From positions 148,615 to 212,614 of the IMG/VR virus record IMGVR_UViG_3300023184_004198: 64,000 bases of DNA. One strand, 5' to 3'. Position numbers and translations under genes: made by a program. Of this stretch, positions 9,271 through 63,661 are shown one piece after another. The first letter of the stretch is position 1. The number at the start of each line of letters is the position of its first letter. This DNA is from a virus. A model generated the notes under the pieces. That model saw only the letters and a program-made list of their open reading frames with translations. It was not told where the DNA came from and searched no databases.

Positions 9271-9819
9271 ATGGAACTGAGAGATCACATTAACCTAGTA
9301 GAGGCCAGTACTAGACCGGCCAAGTTGGAAACCACTCCCTTGCCTTATGGTCCCAAAGACTTGGCACCGGTGATGAGTGCTGACACAATTAATTATCATT
9401 TTGAACACTTGGCCAAGGGCTATGCAAAACGTTATAATGCTGGAGAAGGCAATGCAGATTTCAATCGTGCTGGCAGTTTTTTACACAATAAGTTTTTCCC
9501 TCAGCTTCGCGCTCCCAAAGGTGCCAACAGACCCCGTGGTGCTGTACTTGCCTTGATTGAAGAGCATTTCAAAACCTACGAAGACTTCAAAGAGGCTGTT
9601 AAAGAAAAGGCCATGAAGATACAGGGTTCAGGTTGGGTGTATTTGAGCACTGGTGGTGAAATCAAAACCATTGCCAACCATGCTGTGCGCACAGATATCT
9701 GTGTGCTCATTGACTGGTGGGAACACGCCTGGGCATTGGATTATCAAAGCGACAAAGAACGCTATCTAGATAACATCTGGAAAATAATAGATTGGGACGT
9801 CTGTAACGAACGTCTGTAA
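9271..9819 (+). CDS. Fe/Mn superoxide dismutase with head-targeting-like N-terminus
   Basis: The enzyme turns superoxide into peroxide and oxygen. All four metal ligands of the Fe/Mn-SOD family can be placed: His43 (NYHFEHL), His72 (SFLHNKFF), Asp148 and His152 (IDWWEHAWALDY); SGWVYL is also typical. SODs normally begin near the PLPYGPKDL segment (24 onward). Here ~20 extra residues precede it, beginning MELRDHINLVEAST, with LVE|A resembling the T4 gp21 cleavage site after a capsid-targeting sequence. I infer the enzyme may be packed in the head. It has its own late-type promoter. Confidence 0.9.
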   Translation: MELRDHINLVEASTRPAKLETTPLPYGPKDLAPVMSADTINYHFEHLAKGYAKRYNAGEGNADFNRAGSFLHNKFFPQLRAPKGANRPRGAVLALIEEHFKTYEDFKEAVKEKAMKIQGSGWVYLSTGGEIKTIANHAVRTDICVLIDWWEHAWALDYQSDKERYLDNIWKIIDWDVCNERL

Positions 9820-31052: not shown

Positions 31053-31450
31053 AACGCATACTGATCATGGGTTTGAGTGGTACAGGCAAGACCACACTGG
31101 CTAAGTCACTGCAAACCAAATTGAACTCTGTACATTTTAATGCAGATCAAGTTAGAGGTATGTTCAATGACTGGGACTTCAGTGCAGAAGGACGCATACG
31201 TCAAAGTCAACGCATGCGAGATCTTGCTGATGCAGCCCAGGCTGACTATGTGATTGCTGATTTTATTGCACCATTGAATCGCATGCGAGTAATATTTGAC
31301 GCTGATTTTACCATATGGATGGACACTGTACAGCGCAGTCGGTTTGCAGACACTGACCAAATGTTTGTACCTCCTACTAGTTGGGAATATGACATGAGGA
31401 TCACCTCATTTGACTACAATATAGATAATATCTTAAAGGAACTACCATGA
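31049..31450 (+). CDS. Adenylylsulfate-kinase-like P-loop kinase (133 aa)
   Basis: Walker A GLSGTGKTT at 8-16 and FNADQVRGMFNDWDFSAEGR, which lines up with the CysC segment LDGDNVRxGLxxDLGFSxxDR, then RQSQRMRDLADAAQADYVIADFIAP split as in CysC (A..G.IVI.S.I.P). CysC is ~200 residues; this copy lacks ~60 and its lid is short, as in other phage small-molecule kinases. It may phosphorylate APS or another small hydroxyl substrate. Confidence 0.65.
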   Translation: MKRILIMGLSGTGKTTLAKSLQTKLNSVHFNADQVRGMFNDWDFSAEGRIRQSQRMRDLADAAQADYVIADFIAPLNRMRVIFDADFTIWMDTVQRSRFADTDQMFVPPTSWEYDMRITSFDYNIDNILKELP

Positions 31451-32412
31451 AACGATTACTCTTACTGTTATTAATGATTCCCATGATGGCCCTGGCCTGG
31501 GAACCCAGCCGCCCAGTTACTGTGGTGATAGGCAATGCACCTGGTGCAGGCAATGAACTAGCATTTAGAAAACTGTCACAGATCATCAATCGCACCAACA
31601 AAAAAATTACGTTTGTTGTTGAAAACCGTGCAGGCGCAGACAGCGTGATTGCAATGAATCACATGATGCAAGTATTGCCAGATGGGCATACCATTGCTGC
31701 TTTTAATCACATGAGCCAATATGTTACCCAGGACATTTGGCAGCGCGACATCAAAAAGTATGACTACAACACATTTGAGGATGTGCTTACCATAGGCAAA
31801 AGTCCCTTAGTGCTTGTTGCTATTTCCACCAGCGCAGTCAACACTCCAGATGAATTTGCTACACTGTTGCGTACCACACAACAACCCGTGTTTGTGGCTG
31901 TGGGGTCAGGCGCACATAGAATCACATTTGAGTATTTGATGCTGAAGACCGGGGGCAATAAAAACTTGGTTCGGCACATTGCTTTTAATGGGCCGGCACA
32001 GGCATTGCAAAGTGTTGCTAGTAGTGCAGGTGGCACAGAGTTTGGTATCATGCCCTTGACTGTGGCCCGTCCCTTGATCGAAGCAGGCCGGGTCAAAGCC
32101 ATTGGCATCACTGGTGATCGAAAAATAGCGCAAATGCCAAATATCCCACTATTACGAAAGATCGCCCCGGGCATCAACATATTTGCTGCCTGGAACATTG
32201 TGTTGCCGCCACGCACTGATCGTGTGATTGTGGACTATTATGCGGATTTATTTGCTCGGGCTATAAATACTACAGAATACCAAGAATGGATGGATCAAAA
32301 CTTGGTATTTGTGGAAAGCCGAGAGTTAGATCCAGATGGTTTACGGCAACATGCCCAAGAACTACGCCGAACATTCCTACCCCTAGCAAACCAAATCAAC
32401 CCCACCGAATAA
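31447..32412 (+). CDS. Bug/TctC-family periplasmic solute-binding protein (321 aa)
   Basis: The N-terminus is a Sec signal peptide (LLLLLLMIPMMALA, cleavage before WEPSRP). RPVTVVIGNAPGAGNELAFR, ENRAGADSVIAMNHMMQVLP, DGHTIAAFNHM and AGRVKAIGITGDRKIAQMPN are the standard landmarks of the tripartite tricarboxylate transporter receptor (TctC/Bug) family. Length ~320 is normal, so it appears intact. These proteins bind carboxylates in the periplasm and are massively expanded in Burkholderiales; none is expected in a phage, so host origin is likely. Confidence 0.88.
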   Translation: MKRLLLLLLMIPMMALAWEPSRPVTVVIGNAPGAGNELAFRKLSQIINRTNKKITFVVENRAGADSVIAMNHMMQVLPDGHTIAAFNHMSQYVTQDIWQRDIKKYDYNTFEDVLTIGKSPLVLVAISTSAVNTPDEFATLLRTTQQPVFVAVGSGAHRITFEYLMLKTGGNKNLVRHIAFNGPAQALQSVASSAGGTEFGIMPLTVARPLIEAGRVKAIGITGDRKIAQMPNIPLLRKIAPGINIFAAWNIVLPPRTDRVIVDYYADLFARAINTTEYQEWMDQNLVFVESRELDPDGLRQHAQELRRTFLPLANQINPTE

Positions 32413-34686: not shown

Positions 34687-35145
34687 ATGTGGATTTTACA
34701 CTTCTTACCGGACACACTCATACTTTGGATCTGCAACACGGTGTTGTTGGCAGGCATCTTGCTGACTGTGACAGCATTTTTTATCAAACGCATACCTGTC
34801 ATAAACCAATACCGGATACCCGCACAAGTTCTGGGCATCGCACTGCTGGTGATAGGCGTATACTGGCGCGGTGGCTATGCTATCGAAATGGAATGGCGAG
34901 AACGTGTGGCCGAAGTAGAAGCCAAGGTAGCGGCTGCTGAAGCACAGAGCCGAGAAGCCAACACAAAAATTGTAACCAAAGTTGTTACAAAAACACAGGT
35001 TATACGAACTCGTGGCGAAACTATCACCAAATACATTGACCGGGAAATTGTACAGTATGATACAAAGTTTGCCCCAGGTGGCCAGTGTGAAATACCACAA
35101 GAATTTATCAAAGCACACAACAGTGCAGCAGAGGCACCCAAATGA
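34687..35145 (+). CDS. Inner-membrane spanin-like (Rz-like) protein (152 aa)
   Basis: Two membrane helices (about 8-30 and 40-60) are followed by a long charged coiled coil (ERVAEVEAKVAAAEAQ...). The ending EIVQYDTKFAPGGQCEIPQE leads to FIKAHNSAA, a pattern I know from i-spanin/Rz-like proteins of T4-like aquatic phages ('CxIPxExIxxHNxAA'). With the lipoprotein at 35678 it would join inner and outer membranes in the last step of lysis. Confidence 0.65.
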   Translation: MWILHFLPDTLILWICNTVLLAGILLTVTAFFIKRIPVINQYRIPAQVLGIALLVIGVYWRGGYAIEMEWRERVAEVEAKVAAAEAQSREANTKIVTKVVTKTQVIRTRGETITKYIDREIVQYDTKFAPGGQCEIPQEFIKAHNSAAEAPK

Positions 35146-35678
35146 AAATTAACGACATTATTACAGAAGCCAAATCGGCACATCCACGACAGGCTGCAAA
35201 AGCCATAGCCATGAGAAATGCGGGCATAAAACCCAAGCACATGGGCGAGAGTGCAGAGTTGGCTGAAGAGTTTGATCTCATTGAATCAATCATTGAACGC
35301 CTGGCCGAACACAACGGTGTGGATTCTGAAGTGATCTGGGAAGATTTAGAAACACTGTCAGAAGATGAACTGTATGTGTTTGCTGTGACATCAGAGCCCA
35401 TCATGGAAAGTGAAGCCTGGCAAAAAGCCAACAACCGTGACAAAACAGATGGCATGAGTCGCAAAGCAGTGAAAACTTATCGCAGAGAACATCCAGGCAG
35501 TAAACTACAAACAGCAGTTACTACCAAGCCTAGTAAACTCAAGCGTGGTAGCAAGGCCAGCAAGCGTAGATCAAGTTATTGCAGTCGCAGTCGTGGACAG
35601 ATGAAGATGCACAGCATTTCGTGTTCCAAGACTCCAGACAAAGCAATATGCAAAGCACGTCGTCGTTGGAACTGCTGA
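35142..35678 (+). CDS. Basic internal-head-protein candidate with targeting-like N-terminus (178 aa)
   Basis: Starts MKINDIITEAKS, with ITE|A like the T4 prohead-protease site after a capsid-targeting sequence. An acidic helical middle (~40-105) is followed by a very basic C-terminus (SKLKRGSKASKRRSSYC, ending CKARRRWNC) similar to a small cysteine/arginine module (DUF6321-like) I recall on phage proteins. Probably packed with DNA. Its location between the two spanin genes is odd and may be only operon packing. Confidence 0.6.
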   Translation: MKINDIITEAKSAHPRQAAKAIAMRNAGIKPKHMGESAELAEEFDLIESIIERLAEHNGVDSEVIWEDLETLSEDELYVFAVTSEPIMESEAWQKANNRDKTDGMSRKAVKTYRREHPGSKLQTAVTTKPSKLKRGSKASKRRSSYCSRSRGQMKMHSISCSKTPDKAICKARRRWNC

Positions 35679-36564: not shown

Positions 36565-37278
36565 ATGCCAATACAAATTGGCGGCGGCATTAGTATAGGT
36601 GGTGGGATTACTATAGATCAGGGATTTGCACCAAGTGTGACCTTGTCGTATGATTTAGATGCTGCCAACTATTCAGCAGTGCCCACAAACGGTTCATTGG
36701 ATGCCACAGGTACCTATGCTATCACTGTGGCCAATGCTGGTGCTAGTATTTCTTGGCAGGCTGACAATGGTGGATTATTTAGAAAAAGCAACGCTACAGG
36801 CACAGATGTAATCTACGGTGGACCCAACTGGGTTACTGGGCAAAGTTATTCAGTATTCATGGCCTACAGACGCATAGCCACATCCAGTGGACGACTGCTG
36901 AACACACAAAGCGAAGCATCAAAAGACTGGCTCATGGGATTGTACAACGGCAACCCCAACACATTCTATCCCAACTTCTCAGTGAACTTGCCTGCCACTG
37001 GTGCTGACCTTGTGTGGCGCTTTGGCTGGGCCACATGGAATACCTCTACCAGCACAGGACAGATATGGGGCGCCACTAATACTTTGCCCACAAATTACTT
37101 GTTCACAGGTACCAATGGTGCTGGCGGCGGCTTCAATCAACTGCGAATGTTCAGCAGATCCGCAGGCAGCGAAGTGCAAACCGCTGACATAGGCTTTGTC
37201 AAAGCCTACAGTGGTATACTGACATTGGCAGACATACAAGGTCTATACAATCAATACCGAACAAGATTTGGATACTAA
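36565..37278 (+). CDS. Virion protein with LamG-like/concanavalin-type domain (237 aa)
   Basis: Starts MPIQIGGGISIGGGITI, a glycine-rich lead typical of phage fibre or collar proteins. The body (SLDATGTYAITVANAGASIS, SYSVFMAYRRIATSSGRLLN, GFVKAYSGILTLADIQGLYN) fits a jelly-roll lectin-like fold with the closing 'YSGxLTxxDIxxLYN' helix often seen in LamG-like phage proteins. Probably binds sugars on the surface. Confidence 0.65.
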   Translation: MPIQIGGGISIGGGITIDQGFAPSVTLSYDLDAANYSAVPTNGSLDATGTYAITVANAGASISWQADNGGLFRKSNATGTDVIYGGPNWVTGQSYSVFMAYRRIATSSGRLLNTQSEASKDWLMGLYNGNPNTFYPNFSVNLPATGADLVWRFGWATWNTSTSTGQIWGATNTLPTNYLFTGTNGAGGGFNQLRMFSRSAGSEVQTADIGFVKAYSGILTLADIQGLYNQYRTRFGY

Positions 37279-37289
37279 AGGAGAATACC

Positions 37290-37835
37290 ATGGCTGAAGA
37301 GCAAACACAACCCAAACCACTGTCACGTAGCGAACGTGAAGCAGCAATCAAAGACAAAGCAGGCCTAGTGATTGTGATCATGGCCCTGTTCATGGCTGTG
37401 ACCACTTACTTTAGCAACAGTTACTCAGGTGCTGTGTTAAAGAACATGCTCAAGGCCACAGACACCTATGCTTTCTATCAGAGCAAAAGTATCAAGCAAA
37501 GCATTGCCGAAGGACAGTTAGAACAAACTCAAAATCCTCAGCGTCGAGCAGAACTCGAAGCCAAAATTGCACGTTACGAAAGTGACCCTGCCAAGGGCGA
37601 AGGCAAACGTGAACTGTTGCAAAAGGCACAGGCCTATGAAGCAGCACGTGATGAAGCCACCCGACACTCGCCATGGTTGACATTTGCGTCCCTGGCATTT
37701 CAACTGGCCATTGTGCTGTTGAGTGCCAGCATTTTGAGTGTGAACAACACCATGTACAGAATAAGTGAAGTTGTGGCTGTGATTGGCACAGTGCTGTTGA
37801 GCCAGGGTATCTGGCTGTGGATTCCGTTCATCTAA
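37290..37835 (+). CDS. DUF4337-like membrane protein (181 aa)
   Basis: ATG 37290 follows AAAGGAGAATACC. Layout: charged N-terminus, helix at ~27-45, a soluble coiled coil (~60-125; YAFYQSKSIKQSIAEGQLEQ), and two C-terminal helices (~130-180). This TM-coil-TM-TM order with YQxKSIKQ is that of the DUF4337 family found in bacteria and phages. Function unknown, perhaps membrane organisation during lysis. Confidence 0.65.
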   Translation: MAEEQTQPKPLSRSEREAAIKDKAGLVIVIMALFMAVTTYFSNSYSGAVLKNMLKATDTYAFYQSKSIKQSIAEGQLEQTQNPQRRAELEAKIARYESDPAKGEGKRELLQKAQAYEAARDEATRHSPWLTFASLAFQLAIVLLSASILSVNNTMYRISEVVAVIGTVLLSQGIWLWIPFI

Positions 37836-37863
37836 CACGCACTTAATCTAGCACAAGATCCGT

Positions 37864-37869
37864 TAAATA
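37864..37869 (+). promoter_or_regulatory. Late promoter motif (GTTAAATAC)
   Basis: TAAATA 23 bp before ATG 37893 in the 57-bp gap after the DUF4337-like gene. Confidence 0.5.
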
Positions 37870-37892
37870 CTCATAGCCACCATCGAAGTGGC

Positions 37893-38726
37893 ATGAGTTA
37901 TAATAAGATGGATCCACTAACACTATTTGCATTAGCCAACGGTGCAGTTCAGGCTGTGAAAAAAGGATGTCAACTGTACAAGGACATCAAATCCGCTGCG
38001 GGCGATGTAAAAGGCGTACTTAAAGATCTTGACAATCAGTTTCACAAAAAGTACGATGGCAAGCCTGTGCCTGACGCTGCTGTCAAACAACTCAACGAAG
38101 AAAAAGCCCGGGTCAAAGACCTAAACAAACGCAGTGAAGAAAGCACCAATATCTACACAGAGATTGGAGATGCCTTGGGACAGTACTACGACAACTATTT
38201 CAAATGTTTAGCAGTGCTGGAAGATGAAGAAAAACGTAGCAAAACTGAAGTATACAGTGGTGGTGACAGTCTGGCCAAACGTGCGTTGAAACGTGTGTTG
38301 ATGAAAAAGCAACTGGAACAAATGGGCACTGAACTGCGTGAACTCATGATTTATCAAAGCCCACCTGAACTGGGTGCGCTGTTCACTGAAGTAGAGGCCA
38401 TGACCAAAGAACTAGGCAAAGAACAACGAGTTCTCATGGCACGTGAACTAGAAAAAGCACATCGTCGCCGGCAACGCATGGCCAAGTATCAATTTGAATT
38501 TGCATTAGGCATTGCTATTCTTGTGTTGATTCTCATCATGGGCGGATTTTTCATGTGGGTAGCCTATGATGCGCAACGTCGTTGGGGTAACCCCACTCAA
38601 TACCGAGACACCTTGGCTGCGGTACAAAAACAAGAATGGTTTGAGCAACAGAAAAAACTCAAAGACTACGAACAATTTTTAGAACAACGTCGGCGTGAGG
38701 CGGAACAAAATGAATCCAGTCGCTAA
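37893..38726 (+). CDS. Coiled-coil membrane protein (277 aa)
   Basis: Long charged helices (~10-200) including KLYKDIKSAAGDVKGVLKDL-like stretches, one membrane helix at ~208-230 (IAILVLILIMGGFFMW), then a short charged tail rich in Q/E/R. ATG 37908 is an alternative start. This pattern, and an HKKYDGKPVP segment, is seen in phage proteins near lysis genes; role not known. Confidence 0.6.
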   Translation: MSYNKMDPLTLFALANGAVQAVKKGCQLYKDIKSAAGDVKGVLKDLDNQFHKKYDGKPVPDAAVKQLNEEKARVKDLNKRSEESTNIYTEIGDALGQYYDNYFKCLAVLEDEEKRSKTEVYSGGDSLAKRALKRVLMKKQLEQMGTELRELMIYQSPPELGALFTEVEAMTKELGKEQRVLMARELEKAHRRRQRMAKYQFEFALGIAILVLILIMGGFFMWVAYDAQRRWGNPTQYRDTLAAVQKQEWFEQQKKLKDYEQFLEQRRREAEQNESSR

Positions 38727-47142: not shown

Positions 47143-50100
47143 ATGAACATCAACGAACTAGACTCCTATAATCTTGCAGACGCAGTAAAATTTCACCGCC
47201 GTCTCAATCCCAGAATCTGGGGGCGAGACGAGCACTTGCTGCCTGAAGTGCGTGAAAAATTACTGGCCATTGCTGCGGATTTTCAAGAATTCCTGGGCGT
47301 GGATGATCTCAACGTTCAAGACATCACTATATCAGGCTCAAATGCAGCCTATTCATATACAAAAAATTCAGACATTGACCTGCATCTTGTGGTTGAGATG
47401 CCTGATGATCCTGTGTATCAGGAACTGTTCAACGCTAAAAAATATCAATACAACGACGAGCACAATATAAAGATTGGTGGTGCGGATGTAGAGTTATATG
47501 TACAGCCTAGTGATCAAGCACATCACAGCCAAGGCATTTATTCAATTCAAGACAACCAATGGTTGCAGGTACCTCAACGCAAACGTGCTCAAATAGATGA
47601 TGCGTGTGTGCGTGACAAGGTTGCAGACCTGGATGCCAGAATTCACGCTGCCGTCAAAAGCAAAAATATCGACGCTGTGACCACATTGTGGAACAAGATC
47701 AAAACCATGCGTCAAGCGGGACTCGAACAACATGGTGAGTTTGGCTGTGAAAACATTGCTTTCAAAATGTTGCGCAACAGCGGCTGCATTGGTGCGTTGA
47801 AAGATGCTAAAACAGCACTGCAAGATCGTGAACTCAGTCTGCATGAAGAGCCACGAAAGAGATTTCGTTATGGGTATGGTTCGACAATGGTTGAAGCATC
47901 TACTCCTGATGGAGTCAGTCCTACCACTCAAATGTTTTTGAATGAAGATGACGAGATTGAAACCAAAGTACGTGACTTCATCCAACATGTGACCACAGAA
48001 CTGGGTATTGACCCCATGCCAGAAATTCACTTGCACACTGATCCCGAATGGAGTGTACACAATCACAGTTTTGGTCGTTACGACCCTGACAGTCATACTT
48101 TGAATGTCAGCATGCCCAACCGCCACATCCTGGATGTGTTGCGTACAGTGGCACATGAACTGGTGCATTGCAGTCAAAACCAACAACATGGGCACTTGCC
48201 CGACGATGCAGGTGAAACTGGCAGTCGCTGGGAAAATGATGCCAATGCTCGTGCAGGTATCATCATGCGCGACTGGGCCAACGCACACCCAGAAGATTTT
48301 GAACAAGCACCCTTGGCAGAAAATGCTTCGGGCTATATTCCCAAGAACAAACGAGAAGCAGCCCGGCCACAGTATGCCATGGCACTGAGTGTGGATATCA
48401 AACCTGGGCAGGTGGGCAAAGAAGCCAACAAGTTGGCATTGAAAACTGGACGCAATGGTGAGCCAGGCTTGCTACAACCTGATGCACAAAACTTGTTGCG
48501 TGAGTTTGCAGAATTCGCAGAAGAACAAGAAAACTTGTTTGAAATAACCATGAGCCCCTCAAGTCTGCGCAAATTGAGTGCGCAAACTGGTGCCTTGGCC
48601 GGCATGGAATTTGAAATGTGTGTGCCCAACGTCGAAGGCAACGACGACGGTGATCAAGAACCTGACTATGACTATGATGAACGCTGCCGTAGCATTGAAG
48701 ATGCTGTGCAATTTTTCTATGATGGTGATTGGAACGGTCGTAGAGACGTAGAACGCATGCGTGAAAGAATGCAGAGTGATTTCAGTGATTGGCTGATGGA
48801 CAAGGTCTATCAAGACTGGGAACGCCATGGCGAGGAATATCTGGAAGAATGGGTGCCCAACAACGTGGACGAATCTGAGTGGAATCCTGAAGGCCTGGAA
48901 GGTGAGGCTCGTCAAGAAGCACTAGAAGAATACATCGCTGCTATGCATGCCGATGCCGGCAGCAGTGGTGATGCGTTTGATGAGTACAGAGAAGAAAATC
49001 AAGAGTCATATGACGAAAGTGACTGGTTGGATGACGAAGACCTAGACCGCATGAGTAGTATTGAAAATGCCTACTCAATGAACTGGCCGCACTGGACCAA
49101 CCCCGGCCGTGGCGAAACCAGCATTGAAGATATTGCTGACAGTTTTAGAGACGCAGTGGGCCGCCCAATACTAGCCAGCACCAGTTATCACAGCAGCCGA
49201 GTTGAACGACCCAGCACCAAAAACTTGGAATACATTGTAGAACCTGACAGCAGTATTGATGTTGATGACAACGACGATCGAGGCCTGGAGTTTGTAAGCC
49301 CGCCCTTGCCTATAGAAGAACTGCTGAGTGATTTGAACAAGGTCAAAGCCTGGGCTGATCGTACTGGTTGTTATACCAACGATTCAACCGGCCTGCATAT
49401 CAACGTGTCAGTACCTGGCTGGTCCGGCGACCTCAGTCAATTGGACTATGTAAAACTGGCCCTGTTGCTGGGCGATGAGCATGTGTTGGAATCTTTTGGA
49501 CGTGCTGGCAATACCTATTGCAAGTCAGCCATGGGCAAGATACAAAAAGCAGTGAAACAAAATCCTGACAAGGCAGAAGAACTGTTGGAACGCATGCGAC
49601 AGGGCATGGATCAACTGGCCAGCAAGGCCATACACTCAGGCGTCACAGACAAATACACATCAATCAACCCCAAAAATGGCTACATTGAATTCCGTTCACC
49701 CGGGGGCGATTGGTTGAATGATAACTTCAAAGAAATCGACAACACCCTGCGTAGATTCACAGTGGCCCTGAGTGCAGCCGTGGATCCTAAAGCGTATCGC
49801 CAAGAATATCTAAAGAAACTGTACAAATTGTTGGATGTTCACAGTGAAAAAGATCCCTTATCATACTTTGCAAAATTTGCCGCAGGCGAGTTGCCCAAGG
49901 CAGCACTGAAAAGTTTTGTGCGTCAAGCACAGTTAGAACGTGGTGTCAAGCGTGGCAAAGAAACAGGCCCAATGTGGTGGCGGGTGTACAAAGAAGGCAA
50001 AAATGCTGCCAACGGTGCCGTAATCGAAGTTGTGGCTTCTAGCCGAGAAGAAGCATTAGACAAAGCCGCCGAAGAATGGGGTGTGTTTAGCAACGAATAC

Positions 50101-52059
50101 CGACGTGCCATGTATGCCGAACCTGTACGTCCTTATGACGGAGTTGATACCAGCAGAGAGTATGAATTTTACGACCGACGGTCTGGTGCAGTGGTAGCCA
50201 CATTCCGTGCCAGTGATGATGATGCAGCCATAGCAAAACTGGATCAGTTCCGCGCAGCCCAAGTGCGAACACAGGGAATAACAGTGCCTCAAGCCAATGA
50301 GATATACGGTGTTCGTTCATCAGGAGTGGTCACTGCGCCGCCCAGAGATAGACCATCCACTGCTCCTATTCCAGGAAGCACCTTGGATCTACAACGTCAA
50401 CGACTGGCACAGGCACAATCGGGCGGCAACTGGGGTATTCTAATCACATCAAATGGTCGATTTGTTCGCATGTCTGGCACAGGTGATCCAACTGATAGAG
50501 CCCTGCGCAGATTTCCAAGTCGTGAGGCTGCTGAAGAATTTCTAGCACAAACTCGTGCAGAAAATCCCAACATGAGAACTGACATTGAGATTCGTGAGAT
50601 TCCTGCAGATTATCAATCACCCGGCCAACCTGCAGCAGCAATTCCCACCATTGACATTGATGTTGAACCTGCACCAGCACCACAGCCAGCGGGCATGGGA
50701 CAATGGAACGGACAATGGCGGGTCTTGGTTGGCGGTCAAGAAGTATACCGTTTTGGTGGTGTGGGCAACAGTCAAGCAGACGCCAATAGAATAGCAGCCG
50801 CTTGGTTGCGTGACAACGGACAAGGTGTATCTGGCGAAGGCTTTGAAGTATATCCGGTGATGAACGAAAGTTTGACTGAATCCAATCAACTGCAATTAAA
50901 AGATTTTGTGGTTACAATAAGTCCACATGCCCTGAGCCAAGCATATAACAAGGGTGTGGATGTTGACATTGTAGATGACATTTTGCGCAACATCAGTACA
51001 GTCAAAGATCGTATCATGAGCCTAGAACCTGGCAGAGCCCTGATCCTTCACAACGGACAAGGTACTGGCTTAGGCGTTCGTCGACAACAAGGCAACCGAT
51101 TGACCTTGGCCACAGTGTTTCCCACCAGTCCAGGATTTACTAAAGGCAAACATCCAACTTTTCGAGTTGAAGCAAACACTGTAGATGAAGGTGTAACGTC
51201 TGCCATGGATGCTGACCAAGTATTACACTATGTAAAAAAAACACATGGCGCCGACAAATTCAACATTGAATACAGCATAACTGATCATCCCCAGTGGGAA
51301 TTAAAAAATATTCCGTTGTCACAGTTGCACTTGGATCCTGATGGTGAACAACAGGATCCTTACAATAGAACCAACTGGGTTGACTACGATGTTGTGCGTG
51401 ATTTGATACCTAAGATCAAAAGCGTTCTGAAAAATACACCTATTGTGGTAGACGCCGACGGTTGGATCATTGACGGAAATCATCGTGCCATGGCAGCACT
51501 AGATGCAGGATTAACAAGTGTGCCTGCACTTGTACCTGTTATAGTTAAAGAAGATCTGACAGAAGCCAAAACAACCCGAGAAGATTTTGAGGGTATGACC
51601 ATTGAGATGATTAAAAATGGTCATGTATTAGTGATCAATGCGATTGATGATTGGGGCAATAATATCCTGGGTTCTGTTGCTTTCAATATTGGTGATGACA
51701 ATGATTTAGATCCACAAGACTTAAAGGTCGATGAAAGATATCAAGGTCAAGGTATTGCTCGAGTCATGTATGATTATGCAAAAAGCAAGGGCTACGAGAT
51801 TCATCGTAGTTATGACCAAACTGATGCCGGTCGAGGCTTTTGGGACAAGCATCGCGGAGCGGATGTGCGTGTATGGGAAAACTTTGCGGATGGCAAGAAT
51901 CCCGGACGCAAGGGTTTGAGCAAGCGTGTAGGAGTCAACACCAAAGCGTCAGTGAGTGATTTACGTAAGACTGCTAAAAATTCATCAGGTGAGAAACAAC
52001 GCATGGCCCACTGGCTGGCCAACATGAAAGCCGGCAGAGCCAAGGCCAAGAAGAAATGA
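47143..52059 (+). CDS. Giant multi-enzyme (polyvalent-type) protein, 1638 aa
   Basis: Domains in order: nucleotidyltransferase (GS at 65-66, DIDLHL 77-82, Glu117); zincin-type metallopeptidase (HELVH 338-342, Glu364); amidoligase/ATP-grasp-like region (~485-905: GMEFEM, TGLHINV with His752, EFRSPGGDW); four short strand-strand-helix modules (~945-1240: WRVYKEGK, YEFYDRRSG, WGILITSNG, WRVLVGGQ); a RelE/BrnT-like beta domain (~1250-1345); ParB-like domain with DGNHR (1444-1448); GNAT acetyltransferase (YQGQGIA ~1533-1539); basic C-terminus. Junctions carry LxE sites (LAE|N 393, LTE|S 1246, LTE|A 1474). Resembles polyvalent proteins injected with DNA, such as T4 Alt in principle. Confidence 0.8.
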   Translation: MNINELDSYNLADAVKFHRRLNPRIWGRDEHLLPEVREKLLAIAADFQEFLGVDDLNVQDITISGSNAAYSYTKNSDIDLHLVVEMPDDPVYQELFNAKKYQYNDEHNIKIGGADVELYVQPSDQAHHSQGIYSIQDNQWLQVPQRKRAQIDDACVRDKVADLDARIHAAVKSKNIDAVTTLWNKIKTMRQAGLEQHGEFGCENIAFKMLRNSGCIGALKDAKTALQDRELSLHEEPRKRFRYGYGSTMVEASTPDGVSPTTQMFLNEDDEIETKVRDFIQHVTTELGIDPMPEIHLHTDPEWSVHNHSFGRYDPDSHTLNVSMPNRHILDVLRTVAHELVHCSQNQQHGHLPDDAGETGSRWENDANARAGIIMRDWANAHPEDFEQAPLAENASGYIPKNKREAARPQYAMALSVDIKPGQVGKEANKLALKTGRNGEPGLLQPDAQNLLREFAEFAEEQENLFEITMSPSSLRKLSAQTGALAGMEFEMCVPNVEGNDDGDQEPDYDYDERCRSIEDAVQFFYDGDWNGRRDVERMRERMQSDFSDWLMDKVYQDWERHGEEYLEEWVPNNVDESEWNPEGLEGEARQEALEEYIAAMHADAGSSGDAFDEYREENQESYDESDWLDDEDLDRMSSIENAYSMNWPHWTNPGRGETSIEDIADSFRDAVGRPILASTSYHSSRVERPSTKNLEYIVEPDSSIDVDDNDDRGLEFVSPPLPIEELLSDLNKVKAWADRTGCYTNDSTGLHINVSVPGWSGDLSQLDYVKLALLLGDEHVLESFGRAGNTYCKSAMGKIQKAVKQNPDKAEELLERMRQGMDQLASKAIHSGVTDKYTSINPKNGYIEFRSPGGDWLNDNFKEIDNTLRRFTVALSAAVDPKAYRQEYLKKLYKLLDVHSEKDPLSYFAKFAAGELPKAALKSFVRQAQLERGVKRGKETGPMWWRVYKEGKNAANGAVIEVVASSREEALDKAAEEWGVFSNEYRRAMYAEPVRPYDGVDTSREYEFYDRRSGAVVATFRASDDDAAIAKLDQFRAAQVRTQGITVPQANEIYGVRSSGVVTAPPRDRPSTAPIPGSTLDLQRQRLAQAQSGGNWGILITSNGRFVRMSGTGDPTDRALRRFPSREAAEEFLAQTRAENPNMRTDIEIREIPADYQSPGQPAAAIPTIDIDVEPAPAPQPAGMGQWNGQWRVLVGGQEVYRFGGVGNSQADANRIAAAWLRDNGQGVSGEGFEVYPVMNESLTESNQLQLKDFVVTISPHALSQAYNKGVDVDIVDDILRNISTVKDRIMSLEPGRALILHNGQGTGLGVRRQQGNRLTLATVFPTSPGFTKGKHPTFRVEANTVDEGVTSAMDADQVLHYVKKTHGADKFNIEYSITDHPQWELKNIPLSQLHLDPDGEQQDPYNRTNWVDYDVVRDLIPKIKSVLKNTPIVVDADGWIIDGNHRAMAALDAGLTSVPALVPVIVKEDLTEAKTTREDFEGMTIEMIKNGHVLVINAIDDWGNNILGSVAFNIGDDNDLDPQDLKVDERYQGQGIARVMYDYAKSKGYEIHRSYDQTDAGRGFWDKHRGADVRVWENFADGKNPGRKGLSKRVGVNTKASVSDLRKTAKNSSGEKQRMAHWLANMKAGRAKAKKK

Positions 52060-52592
52060 AGATGTTAAAAAAATTTCCGCAGTTGGCTACATCTGCTATG
52101 TTGTTTGCTCCCTCGTTGGATGAGCATTACAAAATATTTGCTACGTTTTTCAATGACAAAGATACAGTATTGGATGTAGGGTATGGTGATGGCAGTTTTG
52201 CTAGATACATAGGTGCAGTTGGAGTAGACGAAAATACTGATCTCAGCACAATCAATTTGCAACAATTCGATACATTATTATTTTCTGAATCAATAGGGTA
52301 TTTGAGTTATTATGAATTTTTAACATACTTCAATCAAGTTCAACCTAAAAAAATAGTGATCAAAGATTTTTTGTGTACCCAACCCGTTGCTGTTCCATAT
52401 TTTAATTACAACTTTGAATTTTTTCATTCAACAATTTTGCCTTTTTTATTGAAACAAGGATATCACGCAAATGTTTCGATGTTTGATCCACACGTTGGCC
52501 GTTGGATCTCGTTGTTAGAACAATGCGGACTAGAATTTGTACCTGCACTGGACATTAAAAATATAATTGCAGTGTTTGAAAGATCATTATGA
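52056..52592 (+). CDS. Methyltransferase-like protein (178 aa), AT-rich
   Basis: ATGA overlap with the giant gene. VLDVGYGDGSFARYIGAVGV is motif I of class I methyltransferases, though Gly-Tyr-Gly replaces GCG; TLLFSESIGYL is motif IV; then KKIVIKDFLC. Its chain is short and AT-rich relative to flanking genes. Could methylate a glycan or small molecule, or be degenerate. Confidence 0.6.
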   Translation: MKMLKKFPQLATSAMLFAPSLDEHYKIFATFFNDKDTVLDVGYGDGSFARYIGAVGVDENTDLSTINLQQFDTLLFSESIGYLSYYEFLTYFNQVQPKKIVIKDFLCTQPVAVPYFNYNFEFFHSTILPFLLKQGYHANVSMFDPHVGRWISLLEQCGLEFVPALDIKNIIAVFERSL

Positions 52593-53017
52593 GAAACTAC
52601 ATCAACCTAATCGAAGCAGTACAACGGGGTTGTCCCTTGGCCACACATGACATTGATGAGAACTTGAAGAATCGTCAAACAGCCATAGATGAATATCACT
52701 ATGGTCCTGCCAATCCTGCCCGTGCTGAAGACTACTGGAAAAAGAGTGCCAAGATTTTTGGTGTCAGTGAGGCCACTGCAAAGACCATGCAATGTGGCAA
52801 CTGTGCGGCATTTGATGTCAGTGACAGCATGAGAGAATGTATTGCTGCGGGCATACGTGGTGATGCCACCGGAGTTGATGCCAACGCCAGCATCAACTTG
52901 GCTGACCTGGGCTACTGTAACTTTTTACACTTCAAGTGTGCAGGCACACGTAGTTGCAAGGCCTGGATCACTGGTGGGCCCATCACCGAAAAAGACAAAA
53001 ATAAAAGCGCGGACTGA
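52589..53017 (+). CDS. Cysteine-rich head-cargo candidate (142 aa)
   Basis: Starts MRNYINLIEAVQRG, with LIE|A like a T4 prohead-protease site. A basic helical part (~10-65) precedes a cysteine module: MQCGNCAAFDVSD, ECIAAG, GYCNFLHFKCAGTRSCKAW, with six or seven Cys that could bind zinc or an Fe-S cluster. The GNCAAF...GYC..xxFKC pattern is one I recall from phage proteins. First of five consecutive genes with this N-terminal tag. Confidence 0.6.
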   Translation: MRNYINLIEAVQRGCPLATHDIDENLKNRQTAIDEYHYGPANPARAEDYWKKSAKIFGVSEATAKTMQCGNCAAFDVSDSMRECIAAGIRGDATGVDANASINLADLGYCNFLHFKCAGTRSCKAWITGGPITEKDKNKSAD

Positions 53018-53020
53018 ACT

Positions 53021-53596
53021 GTGCAACAACATGAATTCACTGCTGAAGCCAGCCCGGACACATTGTCAGGTAGTTTTACTCCAGATCTTGTGAGCAGCAA
53101 GACTTGGTTGTGTAATCAACTCAAAAAACAACTGGGCGATACCAGTGCTGGCGACATCTATATCTTGGGCTCATGGTACGGCAACCTGGGCATATTTTTA
53201 CAGCAGGCCAACATTGACTTTGATCGCTTGATCATGGTAGAAACTCGTCCACGCTTGTTGGCCACAGCACGCCGACTGCTAGAACCACTATATCAAGCGG
53301 GGCAACTAAAGTTGGTGCTGGGTCGTGCTGAACAAATTGAGTATCCACGCAAAAACTTCACAGTGATCAACACCAGCGCCAACGACATGAGTCGTAGTTG
53401 GATAACTAGAGTACCCCTGGGCACTCTTACTGTGATACAATCACGTGACAATGTCAAAGACGTCAAGGTCATTACAGACACAGCAGCACAGTTTTATGCC
53501 AAGTTTCCCCTGGAAAACACTGTGTATTGGGGGCAACGCAGACTGCGTGATCCAGAAACACGCTACACACGCTTCATGAAGATTGGCTATAAATAA
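53021..53596 (+). CDS. Methyltransferase-like head-cargo candidate (191 aa), GTG start
   Basis: GTG 53021. Opens MQQHEFTAEASPD, close to the T4 IPI/IPIII leader (…QEFIAEA) with TAE|A. Then a Rossmann-like domain: GDIYILGSWYGNLGIFLQQ, DRLIMVETRPRLLATARRLL and FTVINTSANDMSRSW, like class I methyltransferases with SWYG in the motif-I place. It fits the 'injected enzyme' idea. Ends where a perfect TATAAATA lies. Confidence 0.6.
   Translation: MQQHEFTAEASPDTLSGSFTPDLVSSKTWLCNQLKKQLGDTSAGDIYILGSWYGNLGIFLQQANIDFDRLIMVETRPRLLATARRLLEPLYQAGQLKLVLGRAEQIEYPRKNFTVINTSANDMSRSWITRVPLGTLTVIQSRDNVKDVKVITDTAAQFYAKFPLENTVYWGQRRLRDPETRYTRFMKIGYK
53588..53595 (+). promoter_or_regulatory. Perfect TATAAATA late promoter, 7 nt before ATG
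   Basis: The full T4 late consensus TATAAATA, overlapping the stop of the gene before; 7 nt to ATG 53603. Confidence 0.7.
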
Positions 53597-53602
53597 ACAA
53601 TC

Positions 53603-53956
53603 ATGAAGTACAGAGAAATTCTTGAAGCCTGCTGGACTGGTTATCGCCAAGCAGGCATGAAAAACAAAGGTGGTCGCCAGGTGCCCAATTGTGTACCAGT
53701 GCATGAAGCTGAACTGGAAGAAAATCTCCGTGACTGGTTCAAAGAAAAATGGGTGCGTTTTGGGCCTGATGGCAAAATTCGCGGCGATTGTGCCAGAGGA
53801 TCAGAATCGGAGGGCAAGCCCAAGTGTTTGCCCCAGGCCAAAGCACATGCCTTGGGCAAAAAAGGTCGTGCAAGTGCAGCGGCTCGCAAGCGCAGAGAAG
53901 ATCCCAACCCCAACCGTACAGGAAAGGCCATCAACGTGGCCACTAAAAAGAAATGA
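53603..53956 (+). CDS. Basic DNA-binding-type head-cargo candidate (117 aa)
   Basis: Starts MKYREILEACWTG (ILE|A). Next GYRQAGMKNKGGRQVPNCVP, then WVRFGPDGKIRGDC, then a strongly basic tail (HALGKKGRASAAARKRRED). The tail matches DUF5872-like modules that I recall from phage proteins ('…PKCxPxxKA…KKxxAxRRKR'). Highly basic and likely to coat packaged DNA. Confidence 0.65.
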   Translation: MKYREILEACWTGYRQAGMKNKGGRQVPNCVPVHEAELEENLRDWFKEKWVRFGPDGKIRGDCARGSESEGKPKCLPQAKAHALGKKGRASAAARKRREDPNPNRTGKAINVATKKK

Positions 53957-55464
53957 TCATAGACGAACTATTTGAAGCCCCACAACAGTGTCCCGAATGC
54001 GGTGGCATCAGTTTCTCAGACTTGATCTTGGCTGAAAAGAAAGACGCCTGCTACTACAAAGTCAAAGCGTCAGCCAAAGTATGGCCGTCGGCGTATGCGT
54101 CAGGACGCTTGGTACAGTGCCGCAAAAAAGGTGCTGCCAACTATGGCAACAAGTCGGAAGGTGTGGCGGAAGTATACAATGCAATTACTGGTGCATTACT
54201 AGCATACGATGAGCATGAAAAAAACAAGGGTGTGGCGGAAGGCTCCGGCAACGTTGGCAATGCTATTAAATCTTTATACCAAAAGATCTATGCTGCTGGC
54301 GACGATGAAATAGAATATTTCTACAACGACAGTCCCATTTTTGCACAATACTGGGACGAATACGAAGGTGATCTAAACTCAATCATTGCCGAAGTTGATC
54401 CCGGCGAATTACAAGTAATGCTAGACGAATTAGAATCCTATGCTCAACAGGCAGGGTTGGCGGAAGAACAAGAGTTAGACGAAAAGTGGAGCCAAAAATA
54501 CAAGAGTTCAATCAACTGTGCCAACCCCAAGGGCTTCTCACAAAAGGCACACTGTGCTGGTCGTAAGAAAAATGAATCAATAGCAGAAGCACCACTACCT
54601 GGACAACGTCGTGACCCATTGGATCTTCAACCGTTGGAAGGTGGGTCAGCCGGTGGAGGATCTCTTGGCAGCGGCATTGGCCCACGTCCTGTTGAGCCTT
54701 TGCCTAAGTGGACTCCAACACGAATACCCGGAGTTGATGTTCACACTGGTCCACCTCCTGTGGTAACAAAACCCCCAAACATCAATTCAAAAATAGATCC
54801 AGCTGCAGAAGTACCTGCTTATGTAAGACAAGGTAAACCAGATCCTGTTACTACACCTGTTGGCAAACCCAAAATTCAAATCAAGCCTGGCGAGACCATG
54901 GATCAGGCCATACAACGCACCCGGGCCGAACAAGAATTCAGCAATTTTCTCAAGGGCCAAGGCGGTCAGTCATTTGGCACTGCAGGTGGCGGGCGTGGAG
55001 GTCAAGGTGGGCCAACAGCCTCTCAAGCAACATCTGGCTCTGACCAAGTACCAACAATAAGACTTCCCGGTGGGAAATTAAGCGTGGATCCCGATCGTTT
55101 GTCTCCAAGTGGCAATTATAAAACACCGGCAACATCATCAGATCATGTCGGGGACAAAGAAGCCTATAATGCAGCCTTGAAGATACGAAAAGATCAGTGG
55201 AATCAACTGAAGACTGGCAAAGAAAAAGAAGGCGAGAAACGTCGAAGTGCATGGAAAAATCCCGAAACTGACGTAGACCTAGAAGAAACACGTAAAAAAC
55301 GTGAGCAGCCTGAAGCCAACTACGACGACGAATACGATGCCATGGTTGCTAGAGTTAAAAAATTAGCCGGATTGGGTCCCATGAAAACTGTGTATGATCC
55401 CAACAAGCGACAATATCGCAACATGCCCACAGCAGTACAACCCAAAGTACAGCCTAAAAAATGA
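53953..55464 (+). CDS. Multi-module head-cargo candidate (503 aa)
   Basis: Starts MIIDELFEAPQQCPECG (LFE|A). Modules: Cys-containing start; a basic module DACYYKVKASAKVWPSAYAS then CRKKGAANYG; an acidic helical module (~90-175); another basic piece with KSSINCANPKGFSQKAHCAG; a P/G-rich linker (~200-390); acidic/basic C-terminus. Between modules lie LAE|K, VAE|V, VAE|G, IAE|V, LAE|E and IAE|A, all like gp21-type sites, so the head protease may cut it into several products. Confidence 0.6.
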   Translation: MIIDELFEAPQQCPECGGISFSDLILAEKKDACYYKVKASAKVWPSAYASGRLVQCRKKGAANYGNKSEGVAEVYNAITGALLAYDEHEKNKGVAEGSGNVGNAIKSLYQKIYAAGDDEIEYFYNDSPIFAQYWDEYEGDLNSIIAEVDPGELQVMLDELESYAQQAGLAEEQELDEKWSQKYKSSINCANPKGFSQKAHCAGRKKNESIAEAPLPGQRRDPLDLQPLEGGSAGGGSLGSGIGPRPVEPLPKWTPTRIPGVDVHTGPPPVVTKPPNINSKIDPAAEVPAYVRQGKPDPVTTPVGKPKIQIKPGETMDQAIQRTRAEQEFSNFLKGQGGQSFGTAGGGRGGQGGPTASQATSGSDQVPTIRLPGGKLSVDPDRLSPSGNYKTPATSSDHVGDKEAYNAALKIRKDQWNQLKTGKEKEGEKRRSAWKNPETDVDLEETRKKREQPEANYDDEYDAMVARVKKLAGLGPMKTVYDPNKRQYRNMPTAVQPKVQPKK

Positions 55465-56285
55465 GAGCCCAAGAATTCATCAATGAGGCAACTGATATAA
55501 ATGCACCGCCACCTAATGTCAGGTGGAGCATGGATACAGACGTAGAAGATGGTAAACCAGTGCATGTAGCCACCTGGAAAGATCCCAAAGGCAACAATGT
55601 AAGAAGTTTTTTCAAACCAAATGATGAAGGTACATCTGCCAGGGTATTGTTTGATCGGCCAGACAAAGAAGGCAATCCTTCATACAGTAGAACTGGTCAA
55701 GGTAACGCACCACAAGTTTTTACTGGAGCATTAAGCAATACTAAAACTTTTTTAGATAATAATCCCAATATCCAATCAGTAAATTTTGACAGTCAGGCGC
55801 CTACCCGTAGTAGTCTCTATGCCAGGATGATCGACAAACACGCACCACAAGCAGGCTTGGTTGGCTCAGCAAATGTGAAAACACCTGCTTATGGCGAAGT
55901 AGAGTTTGCACTAAATCGCGCCACAAACGATCAACAACATCAGCCCATTTACAAGCAAGTACGTGATAGTATACCAGCGTTGCAGAAGGATTTTAGAAAT
56001 CCTCCTGGTACACGTTTAGGAGCACCTGTTCCGCAAACTGATTCCCCAACTGGTCCAAAAACTGGTCCGGGTGTTAGCCTAGAGAGACCGCCAGGCTATA
56101 AACAAAACACTGGTAGTTCTACCGCTGCTGCAACAAAATTACCACCGTCCGGAAAGGCTATTCCTCCCTCTGTGACGGGCCAACCGTTTACTCCTAGTTT
56201 TGCTGGTTCCCACAGCAACTCTCCTGGTGCCCAGGCCTTCCAGGACTATCAAGATTGGTTCAAACGGAAGATGCCCCGCATTTAA
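55461..56285 (+). CDS. Head-cargo candidate (274 aa)
   Basis: Starts MRAQEFINEATDINAPPP; EFINE|A is the closest match in the window to the T4 leader EFIAE|A. Residues 10-170 are a folded alpha/beta domain (VRWSMDTDVEDGKPVHVATW; ALSNTKTFLDNNPNIQSVNF); the rest (~190-274) is P/G/T-rich and unstructured. ATGA overlap with gene before. Function unknown. Confidence 0.6.
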   Translation: MRAQEFINEATDINAPPPNVRWSMDTDVEDGKPVHVATWKDPKGNNVRSFFKPNDEGTSARVLFDRPDKEGNPSYSRTGQGNAPQVFTGALSNTKTFLDNNPNIQSVNFDSQAPTRSSLYARMIDKHAPQAGLVGSANVKTPAYGEVEFALNRATNDQQHQPIYKQVRDSIPALQKDFRNPPGTRLGAPVPQTDSPTGPKTGPGVSLERPPGYKQNTGSSTAAATKLPPSGKAIPPSVTGQPFTPSFAGSHSNSPGAQAFQDYQDWFKRKMPRI

Positions 56286-56290
56286 TTAAT

Positions 56291-56932
56291 ATGAGAGCAC
56301 GAGAATTCATCAGAGAACTGGACGTAAATCCCATAGCAGGTCAAGAGTTTGATCGGTATGGCCGTCAAGATATTGCAGGACTCGATGCAAGTGAAAAACT
56401 AGGACCGGGTACGGCATCAGTGCAGGGAATTGCAAGGTCGTCTCCAGATTTTGATCCAACACATATTGACAGCAATATTTCTGCAAATTATAGATTGCCA
56501 TTGGGCAAAGGCGACGTTAGTGCTGGTGTTGTAAAAAATTACAATTCTCCTGACAACCAATACAATGTTCAAGGAAATCTTCCTGTGGCAGGTGGTAATT
56601 TCTCTGCTGGAGTTTCTGCTGCCAAAGGCCAACCCAACAATTTTAACTTGGGATATTCTCGTACAGTGGGCCCGGGGCAACTTGATCTTGGCGTCAACAA
56701 GCAAGCCCAAGGCGGACCAAGCAACGTGCAAGCCCGCTACACCATGCCTTTTGAAGAAGAATTAGATGAACAGCAACTGGACGAACTCAACTTCTTGGGA
56801 AGTGAATGCACCAAAGACTGTTCAGGACATCGTGCCGGATATGAGTGGTCAAAGCGCAAAGGTCTGCGCCAAGCCAATTCATGGTCGCCCAGTTTCAACA
56901 AAGGTGCTGGCCTGGCAGTAGCAGGAAAATAA
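56291..56932 (+). CDS. Head-cargo candidate with C-terminal Cys/basic module (213 aa)
   Basis: Starts MRAREFIRELDVN; EFIRE|L follows the same tag as its neighbour. The centre is a G/N-rich beta-repeat region (NYRLPLGKGDVSAGVVKNYN; GNFSAGVSAAKG) resembling a beta-barrel or antifreeze-like solenoid. The C-terminus CTKDCSGHRAGYEWSKRKG is a small module I have seen at the ends of other phage head or internal proteins. LDE|Q and LDE|L sites precede it. Confidence 0.6.
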   Translation: MRAREFIRELDVNPIAGQEFDRYGRQDIAGLDASEKLGPGTASVQGIARSSPDFDPTHIDSNISANYRLPLGKGDVSAGVVKNYNSPDNQYNVQGNLPVAGGNFSAGVSAAKGQPNNFNLGYSRTVGPGQLDLGVNKQAQGGPSNVQARYTMPFEEELDEQQLDELNFLGSECTKDCSGHRAGYEWSKRKGLRQANSWSPSFNKGAGLAVAGK

Positions 56933-62744: not shown

Positions 62745-63050
62745 ATGCAAACACATTTTGTCCGAGTTGAATGCGATGTCACAGCCAAGGTACATGGTCA
62801 GCCACTGCGTTACCGAGCTTATGTAAACAATGAACTGTTTGTTGAACGCACCTGGATCTGGACTGACTGCTATTTGGAAGAGTCATTTCAAATCCAAGCC
62901 GGACCGGGAGTGTATCCCATACGATTTGAAACTGTGGACGAAGCCAATGGTCGCATCAAAGTGCGCAATCACAGAATTGTAACAGGCCCAGGCAGAATAA
63001 TAGAGTATCAAGGCGAACCAAGTTTGGAGATATCAGATGCAAGTACGTGA
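62745..63050 (+). CDS. Virion-type hypothetical protein (101 aa)
   Basis: All-beta protein: [53 protein letters not shown], then [19 protein letters not shown]. This strand pattern resembles a small immunoglobulin-like or CBM fold in T4-like phage virions. Overlaps the tagged gene after it by 14 bp. Confidence 0.6.
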
Positions 63051-63255
63051 AATTGTAGAATCAGCGTCAGCAGGCGCCAGCAGTGCAGGCGGTATTGCAC
63101 CTGTGTCCATGCCCATGGGTACGTTATCAAGATCTGGCGGTTCCCTGCTGACAGGTAAATATACAACAGGTTCGGATCCAACACCGAATACACCTAAAGA
63201 ATACAAGAGGAATAATGATGCTCGCGGACAGTTTAAAAACTCTATTAGCAACTGA
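63037..63255 (+). CDS. Small tagged protein (72 aa)
   Basis: ATG 63037 follows TTTGGAGATATCAG. Starts [19 protein letters not shown], with IVE|S as in the head-targeted group, then IAPVSMPMGTLSRSGGSLLT, an element known to me from short T4-like phage proteins of aquatic bacteria. The rest is disordered and basic. Overlaps the Dps-like gene by 41 bp. Confidence 0.6.
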   Translation: MQVREIVESASAGASSAGGIAPVSMPMGTLSRSGGSLLTGKYTTGSDPTPNTPKEYKRNNDARGQFKNSISN

Positions 63256-63661
63256 ATATGCTTTCAGTATCAAGGCCCAGTTGTTTCACTGGAATGTGGA
63301 AGGCCCTGATTTTGCACAACTGCACGAGTTTTTTGGCAACTTGTACGAAGAAGTCTACAACGGCAGCATAGATAAAACTGCCGAATACATTCGTGCCATG
63401 GGCGACTATGCACCAGGCAGTTTTGAACGCTTTGGTGAACTCAGTATCATACAGGGTCAAACAAAGATTCCACGTGCCCGACTCATGATTGAAGAATTGT
63501 TGGCCAACAATGGTCAATTGCTAGAACTACTCAACGAGAATTTTGCCATTGCTGAACAAGAAAATCAACAAGGCATTGCTAACTTTATTGCAGAACGCAT
63601 TGATGCACATCAGAAACATGCATGGATGCTGAGAAGTTTCTTGAAAGACCAACGAGCATGA
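63215..63661 (+). CDS. Dps-like ferritin-family protein (148 aa)
   Basis: ACAAGAGGAATA precedes ATG 63215 (or 63218). LLATEYAFSIKAQLFHWNVE with the HWN of Dps, then FAQLHEFFGNLYEEVYNGSI and DKTAEYIRAMGDYAPGSFE give the ferroxidase His/Asp/Glu set; the C-terminal helix is AERIDAHQKHAWMLRSFLK. Dps oligomers bind iron and protect DNA from peroxide. With SOD it forms an oxidative-defence pair. ATGA overlap with the next gene. Confidence 0.8.
   Translation: MMLADSLKTLLATEYAFSIKAQLFHWNVEGPDFAQLHEFFGNLYEEVYNGSIDKTAEYIRAMGDYAPGSFERFGELSIIQGQTKIPRARLMIEELLANNGQLLELLNENFAIAEQENQQGIANFIAERIDAHQKHAWMLRSFLKDQRA

Follow-up and report, generated by a model that had tools for sequence, protein, structure and literature searches.

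A predicted head-cargo polyprotein of a T4-like lake phage, built of interchangeable modules with head-protease-like sites at their junctions

In phage T4 a short N-terminal tag directs proteins to the prohead, and gp21 removes the tag by cutting after Glu (PMC9026906). For the polyvalent proteins of phages, the available text of Iyer et al. 2017 (PMC5512222) proposes processing mainly by a built-in zincin domain, and it gives the N4 virion RNA polymerase as an intact polyvalent protein that is packaged unprocessed. We analyzed a stretch of viral DNA of 64,000 nucleotides (positions 148,615 to 212,614 of IMG/VR record IMGVR_UViG_3300023184_004198), referred to below as the window, and in it the gene at 47143-52059 on the plus strand. 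This is an intact open reading frame (ORF) with an ATG start, and the 1638-residue protein reported in an initial annotation of the sequence is real. We propose, with a probability of about 0.8 and on the strength of sequence comparison, that the product of this gene is a head-cargo polyprotein from a T4-like lake phage, which would be packed into the head, cut there by the prohead protease into separate effectors and injected.

The motif [LIVMF]xE/, where the slash marks the cleaved bond (hxE/ for short), is the sequence at which head proteases of the T4 gp21 type cut. Judged from its sequence, the 1638-residue protein unites domains with several unrelated activities in a single chain, as polyvalent phage proteins do (Table 1), and [LIVMF]xE/ is present at each junction between them. 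The four sites listed initially, LAE/N at residue 393, LTE/S at 1246, VDE/G (now placed at 1349) and LTE/A at 1474, were all found, and comparison with relatives added MVE/A at 251, LNE/D at 268, LFE/I at 467 and VWE/N at 1579. Overall, 8 out of 8 junctions carry the motif versus 0.47 expected, for junctions that were delimited by eye with the sequences in view.

The view of the protein as a polyvalent chain with head-protease-like junction sites finds support, at the level of sequence, in its relatives, in which the modules also exist as tagged single genes. Searches of IMG/VR gave 39 loci that hold all or part of the chain and were later extended to hundreds of contigs (designated here by L numbers). 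Many single genes in these relatives begin with MRAxEF[IVL]xE/; among 153 distinct tagged ORFs P3 is I, L or V, and P1′ is mostly A, N, G or S. In the T4 record, ipII and ipIII start with MKTYQEFIAE/A, and gp23 has FLTE/A at residue 65. The GNAT module, 87-92% identical in L135, L136 and L139, is found as MRAHEFITE/AKTTREDFEG in L135 and MRAYEFITE/AKTT in L136, and as KEDLTE/AKTTREDFEG in the window chain; a further tagged GNAT form is MRAQEFVTE/RKKS. We regard this comparison as decisive: the internal site stands where the tagged forms have their cleavage site. Likewise, the basic NFADG module stands directly behind a tag in L014 (MRAREFITE/NFADG) and follows VWE/ in the window chain, and the metallopeptidase module follows tag-like N-termini in L101, L129 and L130.

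Several observations weigh against cutting or packaging of the chain. The window protein has 11 strict sites versus 9.1 in shuffled sequences (P = 0.31), and two similar motifs, at 577 and 783, fall within the amidoligase module. A blind test of homology borders on this protein alone gave a weak result (starts at sites in 7 of 28 cases versus 2.7 expected, P = 0.013; ends in 4 of 31, P = 0.33). Its N-terminus, MNINELDSYN, does not clearly resemble a cleavable tag, which leaves the packaging signal of the chain unproven. Finally, the S77 protease family was not found in the phage's own record, which covers nothing upstream of the major capsid gene gp23; the record opens with gp23 at 57-1253, and the contig ends just upstream, where the protease gene would lie.

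The number of motifs is not above chance, and the case rests on the position and conservation of the sites, that is, on comparison and not on a single sequence. The same motif count would suit an ordinary polyvalent protein that is active as an intact chain, its LxE motifs being linkers or relics of fused tagged genes that are never cut. Such relics would be expected if tagged ORFs had fused, and the N4 enzyme is a precedent for unprocessed packaging (PMC5512222, in the text available). We nevertheless consider an intact chain unlikely, because relics should decay, yet the site is retained after complete replacement of the upstream sequence. The NFADG module was found behind 37 unrelated upstream sequences: P1 is Glu in 37 out of 37, and P3 is V, I, L or M in 89%, versus only 0-27% for these residues at the remaining upstream positions. 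A first count had been partly forced by the search pattern, and these figures were therefore obtained on loci not fetched through that motif. Across the related cargo proteins the coincidence of homology borders with hxE/ sites is strong. Homology starts at such a site in 87 of 471 cases (40 expected, maximum of 56 in 200 trials) and ends at one in 94 of 402 (33 expected, maximum of 48 in 200 trials).

Signals for twin-arginine translocation (Tat) inside related chains also argue against an intact chain, since internal signal peptides are sensible only if a cut exposes them. An RRxFLK motif together with a hydrophobic stretch, as expected of a Tat export signal, is present in related chains; the window protein itself lacks such a module. 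A DNA-level search for RRGFLxGxGAA, a pattern that does not include the Glu, gave 82 distinct cases. In 74 of these hxE lies exactly 2-4 residues ahead of RR (about 8% expected), and the same is true for 53 of the 58 internal cases; the cases are partly interrelated and do not represent independent trials. Typical forms are E/IDRRGFLKG and E/DLSRRGFLRG and, directly behind a tag, MRAQEFVNE/DLTRRGFLRG. The Pfam TAT_signal family scored 24.3 bits in L118 (cut-off 22.7), and several others were under the cut-off. In L148 and L151 Tat-signal lytic transglycosylases (LysM and SLT domains) come immediately after an hxE site or tag, and L195:444-1067 has a Tat signal and a TonB C-terminal domain, flanked on both sides by QGVAE seams (see below) inside a long chain. 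LysM/SLT transglycosylase and TonB C-terminal domains are at home in the periplasm.

As to the protease, long-contig relatives carry a T4-like block with an S77/gp21-type protease beside gp22 (scaffold) and gp23. Two segments of T4 gp21, His-Pro and GVSSRG, are retained in their protease, and the N-termini of their gp23 have LKE/NA in common, a putative cut site. Of 16 contigs bearing the seam or a Tat signal, 10 have both gp23 and S77; the records reach 525 kb. The initial annotation had offered either the HELVH metallopeptidase of the chain or the head protease as the enzyme that releases the modules. Processing by the metallopeptidase would agree with the published zincin proposal for polyvalent proteins (PMC5512222, available text), and the chain does contain a zincin-like domain. 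We consider it very improbable, because the metallopeptidase motif is absent from all 28 chains that have at least two GVAE sites and present in only 6 of the 74 with any GVAE, and because the sites correspond to those cleaved by gp21 in T4 tags and gp23. The head protease is the part of that claim that has gained; the metallopeptidase has lost as a general processor. That the chain is a cytoplasmic late protein outside the virion, in a tagged neighbourhood by coincidence, agrees with its unclear N-terminus and with packaging being a prediction, but has a nearly negligible probability given that its modules exist as tagged single genes and that it adjoins a run of tagged genes.

The commonest junction in related chains is QGVAE/G, and GVAE is the top four-residue word of the non-redundant ORF set: GVAE[GNSAQ] occurs 99 times versus 2.8 in shuffled sequences, with up to 8 GVAE per protein. 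The DNA encoding this junction is a nearly invariant word, CAAGGTGTGGCGGAAGG, of which all 154 distinct exact copies in IMG/VR stretches are in frame. In loci not fetched by the DNA word, codon use at the site differs from that elsewhere in the same proteins (Ala GCG 96% versus 9%, Val GTG 89% versus 32%, Gly GGT 96% versus 43%). Other conserved motifs of these proteins have less uniform codons over their full length, a comparison in which the QGVAEG counts include word-fetched loci. When pairs of chains were compared around the word, 146 were the same downstream, 136 the same upstream and 1 on both sides. The comparison was repeated with inner controls and yielded 114 and 102 one-sided versus 2 both-sided pairs at the seam. 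At a control point 105 bases upstream of it the numbers were 12 and 1 one-sided versus 68 both-sided pairs; downstream controls were less clear because of short modules and ungapped comparison. One or two codons suffice for mean DNA identity at the word to drop from 0.95-1.0 to roughly 0.3. The pattern at CAAGGTGTGGCGGAAGG is consistent with in-frame recombination at a short word that the chains share; homologous recombination of the general kind, template switching or a dedicated enzyme may be responsible. Assembly chimeras were considered as a source of the shuffled junctions; they are unlikely, since identical junctions recur across different IMG samples (L126/L187, L195/L236, L184/L340), although this does not exclude them for every junction. 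The phage's own genome has two copies of the word with two mismatches each, in the neighbouring gene at window 53953-55464, and none in the 1638-residue gene.

That the modules of the chain are interchangeable is evident from sequence comparison: in relatives they are rearranged, split or replaced. Genes with a single module include GNAT (L038 and L039), the basic tail (L030, a 69-residue ORF), amidoligase (L039, 716 residues) and nucleotidyltransferase (L038), and for the last of these cultured cyanophages also have a similar stretch. Two relatives, L015 and L029 (2560 and 2547 residues), are longer still than the window chain and have an extra cytidine/deoxycytidylate deaminase domain. A scan of IMG/VR with the amidoligase segment confirmed no relatives; other queries did yield relatives. 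The NFADG module, the SGYIP module and the Tat protein of L024 had no match among 50,697 phage records. Bins of marine metagenome-assembled genomes include contigs with tags and the basic module. L377, L378 and L379, contigs that contain the basic module or tagged phage genes, were binned as Neomarinimicrobiota, Nitrosopelagicus and Pelagibacter; they are probably misbinned phage.

Profile searches and structure prediction for separate segments gave domain or fold matches along the chain. For the nucleotidyltransferase, Pfam NTP_transf_2 was weak in the window protein (0.032) and above the cut-off in the homologues L013 and L016, and a similar stretch was found in cyanophages, Maribacter and Lak phages. 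In the HELVH domain HExxH and a downstream Glu are invariant across 36 homologues. Its AlphaFold (AF2) model has a predicted local distance difference test score (pLDDT) of 84, and the best matches in the PDB are the minigluzincins abylysin, jannalysin and selecase (probability 0.91-1.00, best E 5e-3, modest template modeling (TM) scores). Both the signature and the modelled fold thus point to a zincin-like metallopeptidase. Amidoligase_2 (PF12224) matched at 3e-8, with 34.3 bits versus a gathering cut-off of 22 and a Pfam core at residues 659-857, and is matched in homologues as well. The model of module 5 (pLDDT 85.5) gave HigB2/ParE as best Foldseek matches (probability 0.47-0.82, E about 0.1, TM about 0.4), which is suggestive of a RelE/ParE-type domain. 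The DGNHR motif of module 6 is invariant in 6 homologues. Module 7 matched PF13508 at 1e-4, under the Pfam cut-off, and its profile retrieves GNATs from the PDB at 4e-4; these profile matches place it with the GNAT acetyltransferases. No usable match came from sequence searches of the PDB with the profiles of the nucleotidyltransferase, ParB, metallopeptidase and RelE-like domains. Of the domains named initially, the amidoligase (above cut-off), GNAT (sub-threshold), nucleotidyltransferase, ParB-like and HELVH calls stand and RelE/BrnT is weakly supported. The tail is indeed basic, yet it forms a module of its own, of 59 residues. The module of about 74 residues at 394-467 and the repeat region at about 940-1240 are absent from the initial list.

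Table 1. Predicted modules and cut sites of the chain, and tagged genes adjoining it (window positions; numbers in brackets are residues)
Feature	Position	Strand	Basis or remark
Module 1 (1-251), Pol-beta-type nucleotidyltransferase, GS...SDIDLHLV signature	47143..47895	+	phrog_36119, 2.5e-42
Predicted cut site MVE/A (251)	47887..47898	+	
Predicted cut site LNE/D (268)	47938..47949	+	
Module 2 (269-393), HELVH zincin-like metallopeptidase	47947..48321	+	HExxH...E, model
Predicted cut site LAE/N (393)	48313..48324	+	hxE kept ahead of (N/S)ASGYIP in many unrelated contexts
Module 3 (394-467, about 74 residues), SGYIP module of unassigned role	48322..48543	+	comparison with relatives
Predicted cut site LFE/I (467)	48535..48546	+	separate gene in L039 starts MRYKQIKPVVEQTLTE/VNMSPTSL
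Module 4 (468-1246), amidoligase-like enzyme with C-terminal repeats (about 940-1240)	48544..50880	+	Pfam PF12224
Predicted cut site LTE/S (1246)	50872..50883	+	end of homology in 11 relatives
Module 5 (1247-1349), small domain, possibly RelE/ParE-like	50881..51189	+	AF2, Foldseek
Predicted cut site VDE/G (1349)	51181..51192	+	DDLTE/SQHS at the same module start in L025
Module 6 (1350-1474), ParB-like domain, DGNHR motif	51190..51564	+	phrog_930, 1.3e-7
Predicted cut site LTE/A (1474)	51556..51567	+	GNAT module directly behind N-terminal tag in L135, L136, L139
Module 7 (1475-1579), GNAT acetyltransferase-like	51565..51879	+	PF13508, PDB profile search
Predicted cut site VWE/N (1579)	51871..51882	+	P1/P3 retained across 37 independent unbiased contexts
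Module 8 (1580-1638), basic NFADG module, 59 residues	51880..52056	+	separate or tagged in relatives
Tagged neighbour MRNYINLIE/A	52589..53017	+	sequence
Tagged neighbour MQQHEFTAE/A, GTG start	53021..53596	+	sequence
Tagged neighbour MKYREILE/A, phrog_727 module	53603..53956	+	
Tagged chain MIIDELFE/A, two internal GVAE sites	53953..55464	+	modules common to cultured cyanophages
Tagged neighbour MRAQEFINE/A	55461..56285	+	
Tagged neighbour MRAREFIRE/L	56291..56932	+	Met is residue 13 of the listed ORF

As noted initially, the chain gene lies directly before a run of tagged genes (52589-56932). Outside this run, window 35142-35678 is a tagged gene (MKINDIITE/A) with a C-terminal DUF6321 domain, which terminates multi-module chains in cyanophages; more tag-like N-termini are at window 9271-9819 and 63037-63255, and at 36763-37134 and 37628-38014 of the whole record. 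Genes for gp20, 67, 68, 21 and 22 are missing from this record, presumably lost at the contig end. By eye, window 31447-32412 resembles a secreted tripartite-tricarboxylate (Bug/TctC) binding protein, which is unusual for a phage, and the small ORF at window 63215-63661 is Dps/ferritin-like.

According to the proposed cargo polyprotein scheme, the chain would be synthesized late and enter the prohead core alongside the tagged proteins encoded beside it, and a gp21/S77-type prohead protease would cut C-terminal to Glu at the [LIVMF]xE/ sites. The products would be the nucleotidyltransferase, the zincin, the SGYIP module, the amidoligase, the small toxin-like domain, the ParB-like domain, the GNAT and the basic, DNA-binding-like peptide. 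These freed modules would enter the next host together with the DNA, and chaining would spare each of them its own gene and tag. An extension of this scheme, to which we give even odds, is a combinatorial effector system, in which the fixed word of 17-18 bp spelling QGVAE/G would be a universal in-frame seam and cutting in the head would unmask N-terminal addresses, notably Tat. A new chain arising from any exchange at the seam word would then remain fit for packaging and cutting. Injected Tat modules such as the transglycosylase and the TonB-like domain would be exported to the periplasm of the new host, having been hidden in the producing cell.

If true, capsid-packaged cargo extends from single tagged proteins to cut-and-release polyproteins, and many of the long late proteins listed as "hypothetical" in aquatic T4-like phages would have an explanation. 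One DNA word would serve both as protease site and as shuffling joint, and head-protease cutting, by switching Tat signals from hidden to exposed, would give phages an apparently new route to the periplasm for injected proteins, judging from open-licence papers. In searches of the same literature neither chains of this kind nor the seam were found described.

In cultured Kyanoviridae the chains are shorter and consist of modules shared with the tagged chain at window 53953-55464, in varied order; in Bellamy one module stands alone behind a tag (gp122, MKSFKQFQE/SWSNKYKKSI) and adjoins the chain gp123. Because these simpler chains are in cultured cyanophages, the proposal can be tested. The phrog_727/phrog_3477 chains (Bellamy gp123, S-SRM01 QPX48171, S-CAM9 AOV60463) have the modules of the neighbouring chain, but are annotated as hypothetical, their sites are less regular and they have no GVAE seam. 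Polyvalent proteins (Iyer et al. 2017, PMC5512222) also chain unrelated domains (nucleotidyltransferase, GNAT, ParB, zincin) and are thought to be injected; in contrast to the chains described here, the available text gives no tags, head-protease sites between modules or fixed DNA seam for them. In the giant phages SPN3US and phiKZ, proteins are cut after Glu behind a short motif, with several cuts per propeptide (PMC10052503, PMC9026906), but those cuts strip propeptides, whereas here they would part functional modules. T4 IPI, IPII, IPIII and Alt have a short N-terminal tag (QEFIxE/A), cutting after Glu, variable injected cargo and an S77 protease; among the relatives of the window chain tags on single modules and an S77 protease are present too, and cutting after Glu and injection of variable cargo are predicted. 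However, the T4 proteins are single proteins with removable propeptides, whereas here unrelated modules are chained, with a predicted site at each junction.
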